Below the pieces are notes generated by a model. It was not told where the DNA came from, did no database searches, and worked only from the letters and a program-made list of their open reading frames with translations. The translations under genes and the position numbers were made by a program. Below, piece after piece: positions 8,912-47,501 of a stretch of 47,787 nucleotides of DNA. The stretch spans positions 1 to 47,787 of the forward strand of contig JANXVU010000060.1 in the NCBI GenBank assembly GCA_025351485.1, in the 5' to 3' direction. This DNA comes from Candidatus Eiseniibacteriota bacterium. Its GTDB lineage: Bacteria; Eisenbacteria; RBG-16-71-46; JACRLI01. Position 1 is the stretch's first letter; each line of letters begins with the position of its first letter.

Positions 8912-9418
8912 GTGCGCTTCCATGCCCCCCGCGTACTCTCAGGCTCGCTGACGCTTTTACTGCTGGCCGTGTTGTGCCCGGCCGCCCGCCCCCATGTCCT
9001 GTACCCGCTCCCGAGCTTCGATGAACGCCCGGCTGCCGCCGCCGCCCGGGACTCCACACTCCAGATCCTGACCGCGGAGGACTTTCGCCGCGGCCTCCTG
9101 GAAGTCCACGAACTGTCCGCCGGCCAGATCTCGTTCGCCGAGGTCTGGAATCTGCCCCACCAGCTCTCCGATGATCCGGAAAGCCTGGACGCGGTGCAGG
9201 ACCAGGATTTCCTGATTTGCTTCGTGGCTGGATTCTTCGGGCAGAAGCCGCTGGAGGGGGAGAGCCCGGCGGCCTGGGTTTCGCCCCCGGAGGAAGACTT
9301 TGTCTCGCCTCCCCCGGCTGGGCACGATTTCGCGCCGCGCCGGACAAACATCCTGAGCTTTGTTGCGGTGGGCGCGGCCGCCCTGGGCGCCGGCACGCTG
9401 TTGCGGCGCAGGACCTGA
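8912..9418 (+). CDS. Secreted or membrane-anchored protein of unknown function
   Basis: I do not recognise a family. The 168-residue product has an N-terminal signal segment (GSLTLLLLAVLCPAARP) and a soluble middle rich in acidic residues. A C-terminal hydrophobic stretch, ILSFVAVGAAALGAGTLL, is followed by RRRT. That tripartite end (hydrophobic segment plus Arg cluster) resembles C-terminal sorting tails such as PEP-CTERM or GlyGly-CTERM, but the specific motif residues are absent. The GTG start follows GGAGGG at a long spacing of 11 nt. It has its own promoter and a strong terminator, so it is a single-gene unit. Confidence 0.6.
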   Translation: MRFHAPRVLSGSLTLLLLAVLCPAARPHVLYPLPSFDERPAAAAARDSTLQILTAEDFRRGLLEVHELSAGQISFAEVWNLPHQLSDDPESLDAVQDQDFLICFVAGFFGQKPLEGESPAAWVSPPEEDFVSPPPAGHDFAPRRTNILSFVAVGAAALGAGTLLRRRT

Positions 9419-9458
9419 GATCACGGCGGCAGATCCAAGCCCCGCACTCGAACAAAGA

Positions 9459-9493
9459 AAAGAGCTCCCTGGGCCTAACCCGGGGAGCTCTTT
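9459..9493. terminator. Bidirectional terminator
   Basis: AAAGAGCTCCC (9459-9469) pairs with GGGAGCTCTTT (9483-9493) around a 13-nt loop. It lies between the convergent genes ending at 9418 and 9513 and has T-rich sequence on either strand. Confidence 0.8.
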
Positions 9494-9512
9494 CTGATTC
9501 GCCGGCGCCGGA

Positions 9513-10730
9513 CTACTCGTAGCGCAGCGCCTCGATCGGATCGAGCCGGCTGGCCTTGCGCGCCGGGTAGAATCCGAAAAAGATTCCCACCAGCCCCGAG
9601 AAGCACAGGGACAGGACGATCGATGCCGGCGAGACCAGCGTCGGCCACTTGGCCACGCTGCTGACAATCTGGCTGGTGAGTATGCCCAGCGCCACCCCGA
9701 TTACGCCGCCCACCAGACTCAGCAGCGCTGCTTCCAGGAGGAACTGGAACAGGATGTCCTTCTCGGCGGCGCCGACCGCGAGGCGAATGCCGATTTCGCG
9801 GGTTCGTTCGGTGACCGAGACCAGCATGATGTTCATGATCCCGATGCCTCCCACCAGCAGGCTCACCCCGGCGATGCTGCCGAGGAGCATGGTCATGATC
9901 TGGGACGTGGCCTCGGCCGTGGATGCGATGTCGGCCTGGCTCCGGATGATGAAGTCGTCGTTGTCGTTGGGCCCGATGCGGTGGCGCTGGCGCAGCAGCG
10001 CGGTCATTTCGTCGATCGCCTGGCCGGCCAAAAGGGGACTCGAAGTGCTGGCCATGATGTTGTTCACCGAGGTGGTGCCGGCCATCTGCTTCTGCACCAC
10101 GGTGAGCGGGGCGACGATGATGTCGTCCTGGTCCTGCCCGCGCGGGTCGGTGCCTTTGGAACTGAGCACGCCCACGACGCGGAAGGGCAACTTCTTGATG
10201 CGGATGGTCTGCCCGATCGGGTCGCTGGTCCCGAACAGGTTGTCCTCGACCGTCTTTCCGATCACGCACACCTTGGCCGATCCCCGCACATCGGAATCCG
10301 AGAAGAAGGCCCCCGCGACCAGCGGCCAGTCCCGGATCTCGGGGTAGCTCGCCCACACGCCCTGCACCGAGGTGCTCCAGTTCTGGTCTCCGAACACCAC
10401 CTGCCCCGGAGAGCGAACCACCGGGGAGACGTTCACCACCGACGGACACTCCGCCAGGATGGCCTTGGCATCGTCCTCCTTCAGCGCCGAGGACGCGCCC
10501 CAGCCCATCGCGACGCCTCCGCGGGAAGTGCTTCCCGAAAAAATCATCACCAGGTTGCTGCCGAGGCTGGCGATCTGGGACTGCACCGAGGCGCGGGCGC
10601 CCTGGCCGATGCCGATCATGGCGATCACGGAAGCCACGCCGATGATGATTCCAAGGACGGTCAGCGTGGAACGCATGCGATTGCGGCGCAGCGCCCGCAG
10701 CGCGACGCGGATGATCATCAGGAGATTCAT
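9513..10730 (-). CDS. MacB-type ABC permease
   Basis: A 405-residue inner-membrane protein with the MacB/LolC topology. TM1 is near residues 20-42 (STLTVLGIIIGVASVIAMIG), followed by a large periplasmic domain of about 220 residues. Three C-terminal TM segments follow, beginning at ITSMLLGSIAGVSLLVGGIG-like sequence. The conserved VSVTERTREIGIRLAVGA coupling loop is present. It forms a mechanotransmission complex with the ATPase just upstream and the MacA-like adaptor. Its ATG overlaps the ATPase stop as ATGA. Genes of this type export macrolides, peptides or lipoproteins; the substrate is not predictable here. No TolC gene lies nearby. Confidence 0.92.
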   Translation of the reverse strand: MNLLMIIRVALRALRRNRMRSTLTVLGIIIGVASVIAMIGIGQGARASVQSQIASLGSNLVMIFSGSTSRGGVAMGWGASSALKEDDAKAILAECPSVVNVSPVVRSPGQVVFGDQNWSTSVQGVWASYPEIRDWPLVAGAFFSDSDVRGSAKVCVIGKTVEDNLFGTSDPIGQTIRIKKLPFRVVGVLSSKGTDPRGQDQDDIIVAPLTVVQKQMAGTTSVNNIMASTSSPLLAGQAIDEMTALLRQRHRIGPNDNDDFIIRSQADIASTAEATSQIMTMLLGSIAGVSLLVGGIGIMNIMLVSVTERTREIGIRLAVGAAEKDILFQFLLEAALLSLVGGVIGVALGILTSQIVSSVAKWPTLVSPASIVLSLCFSGLVGIFFGFYPARKASRLDPIEALRYE

Positions 10731-20736: not shown

Positions 20737-20824
20737 TTGGCAGGCTCCTTGCAGTCAATATCTGCATCAAGAGGGGGTGGGGCGCACGCTTCCGGGGCTA
20801 CCATGAAGGGGCACCCGGAGGCCC

Positions 20825-20972: not shown

Positions 20973-21001
20973 TTGACAGGTCCCGGGAGGTCGAATACTC
21001 T
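20973..21001 (+). promoter_or_regulatory. Sigma-70 promoter for secreted protein / activator operon
   Basis: A perfect TTGACA (20973-20978), 17-bp spacer and TACTCT (20996-21001). Transcription would start near 21008, leaving a leader of almost 190 nt before the ATG at 21196. Confidence 0.55.
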
Positions 21002-21012
21002 TAGTGTACGTT

Positions 21013-21036
21013 GGAGGCACTCTAGGGGGTGCCTCT
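21013..21036 (+). other. 5' leader hairpin
   Basis: GAGGCAC (21014-21020) pairs with GTGCCTC (21029-21035), extended by wobble pairs at both ends. It begins about 5 nt after the predicted start site, so it may protect or regulate the mRNA 5' end. Confidence 0.4.
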
Positions 21037-21195
21037 ACAAATTACGCAACTTGGTCGGGAGAACACGTCGTGAAGATCGATGTGATTCGGAAGACAGGCG
21101 AGAACCCGGGACGGATTGGGAATTGTGGAGATTCCCTGCCGTCCTTTTGCTTGTCCGACGCTCCGGGCCGCAACATGCAAGAAGGTGATAGGAAG

Positions 21196-21558
21196 ATGAG
21201 AAATCAACTCATCGCCATGCGCGCCAGGCTCTCCATCTTTTTGGTCCTGGCACTCCTTGCGGTCAGCTTCCTGCCTTCGTTCACCCCCCCAGCGCAAGCA
21301 GGCAACGCGGGTCAAATCGGCGACGGCGGCACCGGAACACCACCCCAGGGTGGTCCCGATGAGCCGACCGGTGGCCCGACCGCCAAAGGATCTCTCACCA
21401 GTACGAACCCGCGCAACATCAGCGTCAGCGCTGGCGACCTGCCGGGTGACGACATCCATGTCTCGGACCTTGGTGTCCGGAATGTCAGCGCCCAGCGCGT
21501 GGTCGGTTGGATGACCATCGTCAGGGCGGTGCTTTCGGGATTCTGGCTGCATCGCTAA
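21196..21558 (+). CDS. Small secreted protein upstream of TPR activator
   Basis: A 120-residue protein without a recognised family. A signal peptide (RLSIFLVLALLAVSFLPSF, then a likely cut after PAQA) leads into a Gly/Pro/Thr-rich low-complexity stretch. A short structured-looking C terminus contains ISVSAGDLPGDDIHVSDLG and ends hydrophobic (VVGWMTIVRAVLSGFWLHR). I chose ATG 21196, preceded by AGGAAG; ATG 21175 is also in frame. It ends only 17 bp before the TPR-containing sigma-54 activator and shares its promoter. Small exported products beside TPR regulators recall peptide-signalling pairs, but no maturation site is recognisable. Confidence 0.65.
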   Translation: MRNQLIAMRARLSIFLVLALLAVSFLPSFTPPAQAGNAGQIGDGGTGTPPQGGPDEPTGGPTAKGSLTSTNPRNISVSAGDLPGDDIHVSDLGVRNVSAQRVVGWMTIVRAVLSGFWLHR

Positions 21559-21575: not shown

Positions 21576-23870
<2,295 letters not shown>

Positions 23871-23890: not shown

Positions 23891-23927
23891 TGGGGGTGGG
23901 TCATAGCGACCCGCCCCCTAATTTTTT
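23891..23927 (+). terminator. Strong rho-independent terminator after activator gene
   Basis: GGGGGTGGGTC (23891-23901) pairs with GACCCGCCCCC (23907-23917, one G-T pair) around ATAGC, followed by TAA and seven T. It isolates the activator operon from the sigma-54 unit downstream. Confidence 0.9.
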
Positions 23928-24132
23928 TACCCACTAGTAGTTAGCCGACTCTTTCCGAAATCCTGTCGAACTATTGGGTCGCGGGTACCCACATCAACGC
24001 TTGGATGCCTGGACAACTCCCGCACTCCGAAGCCCTGTCCGAAGCTCCACGCCAAGCTTAATTGCCAATTCAACAAGCAGTTACACAAATGAAATCCGGA
24101 GGTGTGCCCGCCGCGGCTGCTTGCCTGCGATG

Positions 24133-24148
24133 TGGCACGGACGATGCA
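24133..24148 (+). promoter_or_regulatory. Sigma-54 promoter upstream of hairpin array
   Basis: TGGCACGGACGATGCA matches TGGCACG-N4-TTGCA with one change (ATGC for TTGC); the invariant GG and GC are exactly 10 nt apart. Transcription would start near 24159, about 45 nt before the first hairpin. It lies just downstream of the only sigma-54 activator gene in the window. Confidence 0.75.
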
Positions 24149-24203
24149 GTTAGGCAAAGCAGATGTCTGAAGCAAAGAAATCGAAGTGCACGTCTTCAGA
24201 ATC

Positions 24204-24322
24204 GCAAATTTTGGTCCCGGTCTTGGCCGGGAGGGGTCCGCTCCGGCCCCACTGCCTCAGGATCTCTCCACAGGTCCTGAAGCGGTGGCCGGGGCGGAGG
24301 CAAGCCGGGACCAAGTTTTTGC
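24204..24322 (+). ncRNA. Structured hairpin element 1 of tandem array
   Basis: This is a nearly continuous long hairpin. The outer stem is TTGGTCCCGG/CCGGGACCAA (24211-24220 with 24305-24314), with a basal GCAAA/TTTGC extension. CTTG/CAAG (24222-24225 with 24301-24304) follows, then a purine-rich bulge GGGAGGGG (24229-24236). TCCGCTCCGG pairs with CCGGGGCGGA (24289-24298), then CCACTGC with GCGGTGG and TCAGGA with TCCTGA, closing a 12-nt loop. TTTTT lies at 24316-24320. The bulge and its surroundings recur in element 3. It is either a structured RNA or an elaborate terminator. Confidence 0.55.
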
Positions 24323-24327
24323 AGTAG

Positions 24328-24408
24328 GGGTCGGGCGGGTTTTGCGGGGCCCTTTCGGTAGCGCACCGCGAAGTCTGCCCGACCCACAGTAAAAGTCTTA
24401 CGGTTTTT
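24328..24408 (+). ncRNA. Structured hairpin element 2 of tandem array
   Basis: GGGTCGGGC (24328-24336) pairs with GCCCGACCC (24377-24385). The stem continues through GGG/TCT (two G-T pairs) and TTTTGCGG/CCGCGAAG (24340-24347 with 24366-24373), giving about 20 bp around an 18-nt loop. A small GTAA-AAGTC-TTAC hairpin and TTTTT (24404-24408) follow. This T-tract shares bases with the left arm of element 3, so the two could be mutually exclusive. It lacks the bulge motif of elements 1 and 3. Confidence 0.5.
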
Positions 24409-24485
24409 GGCGCCGGACCTATCGGGAGGGGTCCACCCCGGACTCGAAAGAGTAAGGGGTAGAGGTAGGGCGGCGCCAAATCTTT
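24406..24485 (+). ncRNA. Structured hairpin element 3 of tandem array
   Basis: TTTGGCGCCG (24406-24415) pairs perfectly with CGGCGCCAAA (24471-24480), followed inside by CCTA/TAGG (24418-24421 with 24466-24469). The same 12 nt as in element 1 (CGGGAGGGGTCC, 24423-24434) form the internal bulge. Above it ACCCC pairs with GGGGT, then ACTC with GAGT, closing a GAAA tetraloop (24446-24449) of the stable GNRA class. TCTTT ends it. Stem positions differ from element 1 by compensatory changes, which argues for a functional RNA. Confidence 0.55.
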
Positions 24486-24584
24486 AGGAAGGCCCCGTTC
24501 CATGCCGGGCATCCTGGTGACTCAGAACTCTCTAGGCTGAGGGACTGGGTAGCCCCGGCACCGGAAACGGGGCCTTTCTTTTTT
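24486..24584 (+). ncRNA. Structured hairpin element 4 with terminator-like end
   Basis: AGGAAGGCCCCGT (24486-24498) pairs with ACGGGGCCTTTCT (24567-24579, one G-T pair). TGCCGGG/CCCGGCA (24503-24509 with 24554-24560) and CTCAG/CTGAG (24521-24525 with 24537-24541) follow inside, with an 11-nt loop similar to that of element 1. The right arm runs into TTTCTTTTTT (24575-24584). A Shine-Dalgarno sequence begins 1 nt later, so this hairpin could attenuate the gene at 24596. Confidence 0.6.
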
Positions 24585-24595
24585 CAGGAGGTGGC

Positions 24596-25561
24596 ATGTT
24601 GAGCCCGGCCCGTTTCAGGACTCTCGCGATTGCCTGCATGCTCCCGTTCCTGCTCGCCGGCCCGGTGGCGGCCCAACAGCCTTCCGCGCCGGCCGCGGCA
24701 CCGCCTCCGGCGGAGCTCATGCAGCCTGCCGCCGCGTTGTTCGCGGCGGGCGATTGGAAGGGCTCGCTCGACGCCTACTCGGCGATCGCCGCGAAGTATC
24801 CGGCTTCTGCGCTCGCCCGATTTCGCGTCGGAGTATCGCAACTTGGGCTCGGGCGCAGCGTCGAAGCCGAGAAGAGCCTTCGCGAAGGTGAAAGACTGGG
24901 CGCCCCGGCCCCGCAAGCGGCCTGGCGCATGGCGCAGGCCCTGGCCGAACAGGGCCGGGCCGATGAGGCGGTTGCCGAACTACGCCGCGCACTGCATGCC
25001 GGGATGACTCTGACCGCAGCCGCCCTCAACTCCGACGCGCACCTGGCGAAACTCGTCGCCCACCCCGGATGGAGCGCGCTCACGGATTCCTTCGACACGA
25101 TCACCCAACCCTGCAGGCATGACCCGCACTGCCGGCAGTTCGATTTCTGGATCGGCGACTGGGACGTGCGCACCACGGGCCTCCCCGCGGTGGGACCCGC
25201 GGCGCGAAACACGGTCACGCTGGAAGAGAACGGCTGCGTGGTGATGGAGCATTGGAAGGGCGGCGGCGGCTCGACCGGGCAGAGCTTCAACGTGTTCGAC
25301 GCTTCGGTCGGAAAATGGCGCCAGACATGGGTGGACAATTCCGGCGGGCAGCACGACTACGTGGGCGAATTGAAGGACGGCAACATGGTGCTCGAGGGCA
25401 CGACCCCCGCGCCCGGCCGCCGGCTGGGACACATCCCGACGCGGCTCACGTTCTTTCACATCAGCGCGGACTCGGTGCGGCAGTTCTCCCAGACCTCGCC
25501 CGACAGCGGCCGCACCTGGCAACCCAACTACGACCTGATGTACGTGCGGCGCAAGCCGTAG
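24596..25561 (+). CDS. Secreted TPR-DUF1579-like protein
   Basis: A 321-residue exported protein. The signal peptide ends near GPVAAQQ. Residues about 45-165 hold TPR-like repeats (FAAGDWKGSLDAYSAIAAKY and AQALAEQGRADEAVAELRRA). The C-terminal half begins FDFWIGDWDVRTTG, the characteristic opening of DUF1579 / lipocalin-like beta domains. The function is unknown; a ligand-binding or sensing role in the periplasm is plausible. GGAGG lies 6 nt before the ATG. The gene sits immediately after the terminator-like hairpin of element 4 and is the first protein gene after the sigma-54 promoter, so it is probably a target of the TPR activator. No terminator was seen after it. Confidence 0.75.
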   Translation: MLSPARFRTLAIACMLPFLLAGPVAAQQPSAPAAAPPPAELMQPAAALFAAGDWKGSLDAYSAIAAKYPASALARFRVGVSQLGLGRSVEAEKSLREGERLGAPAPQAAWRMAQALAEQGRADEAVAELRRALHAGMTLTAAALNSDAHLAKLVAHPGWSALTDSFDTITQPCRHDPHCRQFDFWIGDWDVRTTGLPAVGPAARNTVTLEENGCVVMEHWKGGGGSTGQSFNVFDASVGKWRQTWVDNSGGQHDYVGELKDGNMVLEGTTPAPGRRLGHIPTRLTFFHISADSVRQFSQTSPDSGRTWQPNYDLMYVRRKP

Positions 25562-32268: not shown

Positions 32269-32341
32269 ATGGCGGTCGCCGGCGCGAGTGAACCCGGGGC
32301 TTCGGGGAGTCCGCGATGGCGCCGGTTCAGTCCGGGCGCGG

Positions 32342-32388
32342 CCATGAAGAAGGGGCGCGGATCTTGGATCCGCGCCCCTTCTTCATGG
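32342..32388. terminator. 22-bp perfect hairpin between convergent genes
   Basis: Positions 32342-32363 and 32367-32388 are perfect inverted complements of 22 bp around a TTG loop; the core is GGGGCGCGGATC. It includes A-rich and T-rich flanks on both strands and ends both the GNAT gene and the D-Ala peptidase gene. Confidence 0.85.
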
Positions 32389-32406
32389 GTCCAAGGAGAG
32401 CCGGAC

Positions 32407-35224: not shown

Positions 35225-35300
35225 GCGTTCCGGACCTCACGGGCTCCCCGTCCCTGGGCGTACACCCTGGACTGTCCCGTACGGTCCGGATAGGCCTTCC

Positions 35301-35340
35301 AAGGGCTCCTTTCCCCCAATCGGGGAAGGGAGCCCTTCTT
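35301..35340 (+). terminator. Terminator after 5'-nucleotidase gene
   Basis: Positions 35301-35316 pair with 35322-35337 (16 bp, one G-T pair) around a short CAATC loop, followed by CTT. Confidence 0.8.
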
Positions 35341-35428
35341 CATGCAAACCCCTATCCTGTTGTTTTTCAAAAGAATACGGGCTCAGCACCCGCTGGCCCG
35401 ACCCGCTCGGAAAGCGGGCTTCCGCCGG

Positions 35429-37794: not shown

Positions 37795-37842
37795 GCGCGC
37801 GCCGGAGAGAATGCTTCGGAGCGTGACGCAGGCCCAAGCCAG

Positions 37843-37880
37843 GAACCCCCGGACGGAGCTCTTCCGTCCGGGGGTTCTCG
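37843..37880 (+). terminator. Terminator after lipoprotein pair
   Basis: A 15-bp perfect stem (37843-37857 with 37863-37877) closes GCTCT and is followed by a short T-rich stretch. Confidence 0.8.
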
Positions 37881-37896
37881 TTTCCGGCACATCCGC

Positions 37897-37902
37897 TACA
37901 AT
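37897..37902 (+). promoter_or_regulatory. -10 box of glycosidase-like lipoprotein gene
   Basis: TACAAT ends 6 nt before the GTG start at 37909. No good -35 is visible. The spacing again suggests a leaderless mRNA. Confidence 0.45.
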
Positions 37903-46919: not shown

Positions 46920-47501
46920 CTACCCCGACCGGTGCGGAAGGCGGAGCCGCAGCAGTTCGGCGGACTTCAGGAACCTGGAGCGAACCTGGTCCAGGGGTGT
47001 TCCGGTCACCAGGCAGGTGAAGATCGCGAGCGTGAACTGGTGGCCCACCAGCAGCACCCGGGAGCCTTCGGGCCCGGCGGAGAGTTCGTCCAGCAGCGGG
47101 GCCACGCGGCGGGCGACGTCCAGCCCGGACTCGCCGCCCGGAGGGCCATGACGAAGCGGGTCGGCGTGCCAGGCGGCGGCGGCTTCGGGCTCGGTGGCCT
47201 CCACCTCTTCGTCGAACCGGCCTTCCCACCGGCCGGGATCCATTTCGAGCAAGCGGGGCTCGGCCTGGAATCCGGGGCCGCTGCGAAGGGCTGCCACCGC
47301 CTCGGCCGTCTCGCGGGCCCGGAGGAGCGGGCTCACCAGGGCCCGGTCCAAAGGCTCCGAGCGGAGTTGCTCCGCCAGAGCCAGCGCCTGCGCGCGGCCG
47401 GTTTCGTTCAGGGGCACGTCGCTGCGACCCTGCCAGCGCCGGACCAGGTTCCATTCGGTCTGGCCGTGGCGGGCCAGGAGCAGGGTGTGGTCAGCGCCCA
47501 C
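46920..47501 (-). CDS. Histidine phosphatase family protein
   Basis: A 193-residue phosphoglycerate-mutase-like phosphatase. The catalytic His is in LARHGQTEWN, Arg and Glu follow in SPLLRARETAEAV and MDPGRWEG, and the second His is in VLLVGHQFTL. Possible substrates include alpha-ribazole phosphate (CobC-like) and sugar phosphates; nothing decides between them. GTG 47501 lies 7 nt after GGGGAG; TTG 47507 is too close to it. The gene lies upstream of, and in the same direction as, the mod operon, with 36 bp between its stop and that promoter's -35. Confidence 0.88.
   Translation of the reverse strand: MGADHTLLLARHGQTEWNLVRRWQGRSDVPLNETGRAQALALAEQLRSEPLDRALVSPLLRARETAEAVAALRSGPGFQAEPRLLEMDPGRWEGRFDEEVEATEPEAAAAWHADPLRHGPPGGESGLDVARRVAPLLDELSAGPEGSRVLLVGHQFTLAIFTCLVTGTPLDQVRSRFLKSAELLRLRLPHRSG

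Follow-up and report, generated by a model that had tools for sequence, protein, structure and literature searches.

A putative sigma-54-driven, multi-hairpin regulatory RNA adjacent to a TPR activator in a Candidatus Eiseniibacteriota bacterium

The region examined lies on contig JANXVU010000060.1 of Candidatus Eiseniibacteriota bacterium (GCA_025351485.1), and the window refers to the whole analyzed stretch of 47,787 nucleotides. An operon encoding a small exported protein and a sigma-54 activator is followed by a terminator, two copies of a 14-nt repeat, a near-perfect sigma-54 promoter, and four consecutive hairpins (24204–24579), the last of which runs into a T-run shortly before a gene starting at 24596 (Table 1). 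A possible short stem (24165–24199) lies in front of the hairpins. Upstream of the operon, a sigma-70-like promoter (TTGACA, 17 nt, TACTCT, read by eye) is followed by a well-folded leader with a hairpin and a terminator-like GGGACGG..CCGTCCTTTT before the exported-protein gene (20973–21195), suggesting possible attenuation. Other 100-nt windows that fold strongly (z −4.7 to −6.1) occur at 9401–9550, 32301–32400, 35251–35400, 37801–37900, and 47301–47400, and are probably terminators or repeats between genes.

Table 1. Coordinates of the predicted features at the locus and the basis for each assignment.
Position	Strand	Feature	Basis
20738–20753	+	Second sigma-54-like site (TGGCAGGCTCCTTGCA), upstream of the exported-protein/activator operon; possible autoregulation	One mismatch to TGGCACGNNNNTTGCW; not seen at this place in relatives
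21196–21558	+	Small exported protein, 120 aa: signal peptide, GGPDEPTGG motif, C-terminal tail ending FWLHR	Relatives directly upstream of the TPR activator in families f2, f3, and f5; no Pfam family
21576–23870	+	Activator, 764 aa: TPRs, sigma-54 interaction AAA+ domain with GAFTGA, Fis-type HTH	Pfam; GAFTGA
23892–23928	+	Terminator of the activator operon	Terminator scan
23954–23967	+	Putative activator-binding site, copy 1 (TCCGAAATCCTGTC)	Repeat, 72 nt before copy 2; f2 palindromes have the same spacing
24026–24039	+	Putative activator-binding site, copy 2 (TCCGAAGCCCTGTC)	Repeat
24133–24148	+	Sigma-54 promoter TGGCACGGACGATGCA	One mismatch to consensus; equivalent site downstream of 18 of 22 GAFTGA TPR activators
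24158–24584	+	Inferred noncoding RNA, about 427 nt	Start estimated from the promoter, end from the terminator; fold z −8.1
24204–24322	+	Element 1: long hairpin with unpaired GGGAGGGG (24229–24236) and apical loop CUCCAC (24266–24271)	Fold; comparison with element 3
24328–24385	+	Element 2: hairpin	Fold; 24301–24400 has the lowest z of all 100-nt windows tested
24406–24480	+	Element 3: diverged copy of element 1, GAAA tetraloop	Fold; comparison with element 1
24486–24584	+	Element 4: long hairpin followed by CTTTCTTTTTT, taken as the intrinsic terminator	Read directly; loop too long for the terminator scan

An earlier note, made from the sequence alone, had described elements 1 and 3 as sharing a bulge motif with compensatory stem changes, and this observation was confirmed. 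The motif CGGGAGGGGTCC is present at 24228–24239 and 24423–24434, inside a 19-nt repeat of 89% identity, and all of the pairs named in the note exist. Of the 24 pairs in the common structure, five have changed on both sides and stay paired (one of them after shifting a gap by one column): T24223–A24303 versus C24419–G24468, G24225–C24301 versus A24421–T24466, G24240–C24295 versus A24435–T24460, and two in the outer stem (T-A versus C-G and C-G versus G-C). Two further pairs changed on one side and two are broken. The 12-mer on its own is not improbable in this G+C-rich DNA (with one mismatch allowed, 2 found and 1.17 expected), but the fold is: element 1 has a z of −6.2 and the array a z of −10.3, with no shuffle of either folding as well (none of 100 for the array). 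Two sequences cannot provide covariation statistics, and element 3 alone prefers a small GGA/UCC hairpin with a GGGG loop (−44.0 kcal/mol) over the fold shared with element 1 (−42.3 kcal/mol), such that the common internal-loop geometry is likely but not certain. An open frame (24163–24327), read by eye, extends over element 1 but was set aside as the stem pairing is kept between the copies.

Searches for relatives of the array by sequence returned none. No Rfam 15 family scored above its gathering threshold in the window, and no sequence homologue was found in the own genome or in 98 relatives, though no other genome of the same family was among the relatives searched. A covariance model of elements 1 and 3 identified only the two copies themselves and the reverse strand of element 1 in 47 genomes of the class, with nothing in the 46 other genomes, and pattern scans of IMG/VR and of 84,980 species gave chance matches that fail the model or do not form the fold. 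The absence of homologues with the motif, which the note had set as grounds for rejecting its interpretation, therefore holds at the sequence level, but as detailed below the RNA has positional counterparts whose sequence differs. The note's interpretation of a selected fold with a conserved purine-rich loop is partly supported. A selected RNA fold is supported, and more strongly by context (the sigma-54 promoter, repeated upstream sites, terminator, fold energy, and structured RNAs in the same position in other genomes) than by the two-copy comparison, and the G-rich unpaired stretch is real in element 1, but it is not supported that the motif defines a family, and the single-strand-DNA alternative raised in the note has no support. 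As there is one copy in the genome, the array does not have the many copies per genome of REP/BIME or mobile hairpins.

The upstream context offers an explanation for what may drive the array. Two sites with one mismatch to the sigma-54 consensus occur in the window where 0.37 are expected, one on either side of the activator operon, and RpoN is present in the genome. This linkage extends across the class. TPR activators were found in 46 of 47 genomes and 40 loci were retrieved. Of the 22 loci with an exact GAFTGA and sequence beyond the stop, 18 have a sigma-54 site with at most two mismatches within 420 nt downstream on the same strand, compared to 0 of 7 without a GAFTGA-like loop and a background of 0.14 sites per kb. 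The remaining four of the 22 lack a clear promoter, though one has a site with three mismatches. Three loci with GAFSGA also have a site. It should be noted that the consensus and the 420-nt range were chosen after the pattern had been noticed in the first loci, with the second batch of retrieved loci serving as a second set. GAFSGA in place of GAFTGA was seen in the activators of family f8 (loci L080, L083, and L084). One genome, G032, has a weak exported-protein hit (E 2e-5) just upstream, but no comparable structured RNA was seen downstream of the activator in the f8 loci.

Paired palindromes lie upstream of the promoters at fixed distances, TGTYACC..GGTRACA near −211 and −139 in f2 (both copies in 7 of 13 loci, one copy in 3 more) and TGACAT..GTC near −225 and −133 in f5 (5 of 5), and these are close to zero in shuffled sequence. 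The window lacks these words, and its own 14-nt repeat has the f2 spacing but another sequence.

In f2, the promoter leads into an RNA of 355–540 nt (13 loci) with a conserved 3′ block, a covarying hairpin and, in most, a terminator. The covariation score was 0.432 against 0.266 in shuffles, with 0 of 500 shuffles as high, and 94% of cells were paired against 43–55% when the partner was slid. Exact matches to the block in f2 genomes are single and, where the activator locus was retrieved, at the module, while five elsewhere lack its context. Hits to CCCGGTCAACGAAG outside f2 have no context of the f2 RNA and look coding. The fold z of the f2 RNAs ranges from −0.5 to −5.6, compared to −1.5 to +0.8 for coding controls. 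In the f2 loci L087 and L090–L094, the RNA sits between the activator and a cluster of tRNA genes, in the same order in all loci examined. In f5, the promoter leads into a second conserved RNA, found once in 8 of 9 genomes, six of them next to retrieved activator loci, though the RNA cores fold only weakly better than shuffles (z −0.7 to −3.0). In f3, about 125 nt with a hairpin and a T-run follow (z −4.9), and downstream of the activator in locus L086 (genome G021) a short RNA of about 125 nt, predicted to be sigma-54-driven, ends in a hairpin and T-run, unlike the long RNAs of f2. None of these matches Rfam, with only tRNAs detected in the relatives. The f2 model does not detect the window RNA (best E in the own genome 0.76) and the window activator sits on a long branch whose place in the activator tree is unresolved, such that equivalence of the RNAs is by position and control and not by sequence.

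Placement of the array immediately before the gene at 24596 could instead indicate a cis-acting leader, with elements 1 and 3 as tandem aptamers and element 4 as an attenuator. The T-run of element 4 ends 12 nt before the ATG and abuts its ribosome-binding site, and elements 1 and 3 are a duplicated hairpin. However, the closest homologues of the 24596 gene in genomes G033 and G035 lie on other contigs than the activator, other genes follow the RNA in f2 and f5, and the activator and promoter are what is conserved while the downstream gene is not conserved with the module, making this explanation unlikely. It is less likely still that the promoter serves the downstream gene or marks a silent region and that the hairpins are only a terminator array or a DNA-level element. 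Tandem strong hairpins with an internal duplication and the lack of expression data would be consistent with this view, but the array is single copy, promoter and terminator bracket it, the + strand folds far better than the − strand (−225 against −194 kcal/mol), and conserved RNAs with covariation stand in the same place in f2.

A protein sponge of the CsrB/RsmZ type, in which a multi-hairpin RNA sequesters CsrA through GGA motifs, was also considered. csrA is present in the own genome and in 34 of 47 genomes, and the RNA has G-rich unpaired stretches. However, neither GGA nor A-N-GGA is enriched over dinucleotide shuffles in the window RNA or in the f2 RNAs taken together, and genome G008 has the f2 RNA but no csrA was found there, such that this role is improbable.

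The exported protein has a relative directly before the activator in f2, f3, and f5, with a GDPDxP or SPDE motif and a tail mostly ending in LRF, IRF, LHR, or similar, while hits outside the class had chance-level scores. RRNPP systems (for example PMC7206700) pair a TPR receptor with an exported pro-peptide. The locus likewise has a TPR regulator encoded directly after a small exported protein, but the output domain is a sigma-54 AAA+ activator with Fis-type HTH, the exported protein is 104–123 aa, and the inferred target is an RNA gene. By analogy, peptide control of the activator is a reasonable idea, though on present evidence a tentative one.

Combined, these results are best explained if elements 1–4 are domains of one noncoding RNA that is transcribed by sigma-54 RNA polymerase when the neighboring TPR/AAA+ activator, bound at the two upstream sites, fires, and that ends at element 4 (probability roughly 0.75). 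In this view, the RNA is the version in this lineage of a module seen across the class, consisting of a small exported protein, a TPR sigma-54 activator, enhancer sites, a sigma-54 promoter, and a structured RNA. The array, its fold, the promoter and terminator sequences, the linkage to GAFTGA activators, the repeated upstream sites, and the covariation in f2 are established by the sequence analysis, while transcription under the activator and RpoN is an inference with good support, the covariation of the window RNA itself resting on two internal copies. A folded RNA with its own promoter and terminator is very likely, as is, slightly less so, control by the adjacent activator, and it is likely that the RNA is the functional product. 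Support is weak, resting on analogy, for the proposals that the RNA acts in trans by base pairing with mRNAs and that the exported protein is matured to a peptide sensed by the TPR domain, the former being the more doubtful of the two. Trans action would proceed through exposed loops, a G-rich unpaired stretch followed some 40 nt later by an anti-Shine-Dalgarno-like loop (CUCC in the window, CACCUCC in f2). The window RNA is of f2 length and has unpaired GGGAGGGG at position 72 and a CUCC loop at 109, while most f2 RNAs have GGGGGA (mostly 54–74) and CACCUCC (mostly 96–120), the latter in 10 of 13 f2 RNAs and mostly unpaired, a shared layout that is suggestive only.

Control of a noncoding regulatory RNA by a sigma-54 activator from a −24/−12 promoter is already known for the Qrr RNAs with LuxO and CrcZ with CbrB (PMC2680268, PMC6296734). 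The locus has the corresponding promoter, with GG and GC, directly before the RNA, as well as an activator with GAFTGA and RpoN in the genome. The activators of those systems are response regulators of two-component or phosphorelay systems, whereas here the N-terminal part is TPR repeats, the RNA is longer and much more folded, and the RNA gene is directly downstream of its activator in most loci. RNAIII of the agr system is a long (about 500 nt) multi-hairpin RNA and the output of a system with an exported peptide, as is presumed for the RNA here, and the C-rich loops of the f2 RNAs may be complementary to ribosome-binding sites. The locus differs in the absence of agr-type genes, in its predicted sigma-54 control, and in the lack of sequence similarity, and the parallel in peptide sensing and targets is by analogy. 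Literature searches limited to open-licence papers found no description of this combination.

It remains possible, though less likely than not, that these loci represent an undescribed class-wide signaling module in which an exported pro-peptide controls a TPR sigma-54 activator whose dedicated output is a large structured RNA, and in which the RNA changes beyond sequence recognition between families while promoter, enhancer layout, and protein partners stay in place. The module would add a new type of RNA-output signaling system, conserved across families of a class known here mostly from draft genomes, and at least two sizeable RNA families (f2 and f5) that are absent from Rfam. The RNA sequence turns over completely while the promoter and protein parts persist, making it testable what is conserved in fast-evolving bacterial regulatory RNAs, and the analysis shows a way to find such RNAs by starting from the activator and its sigma-54 promoter rather than from sequence similarity.
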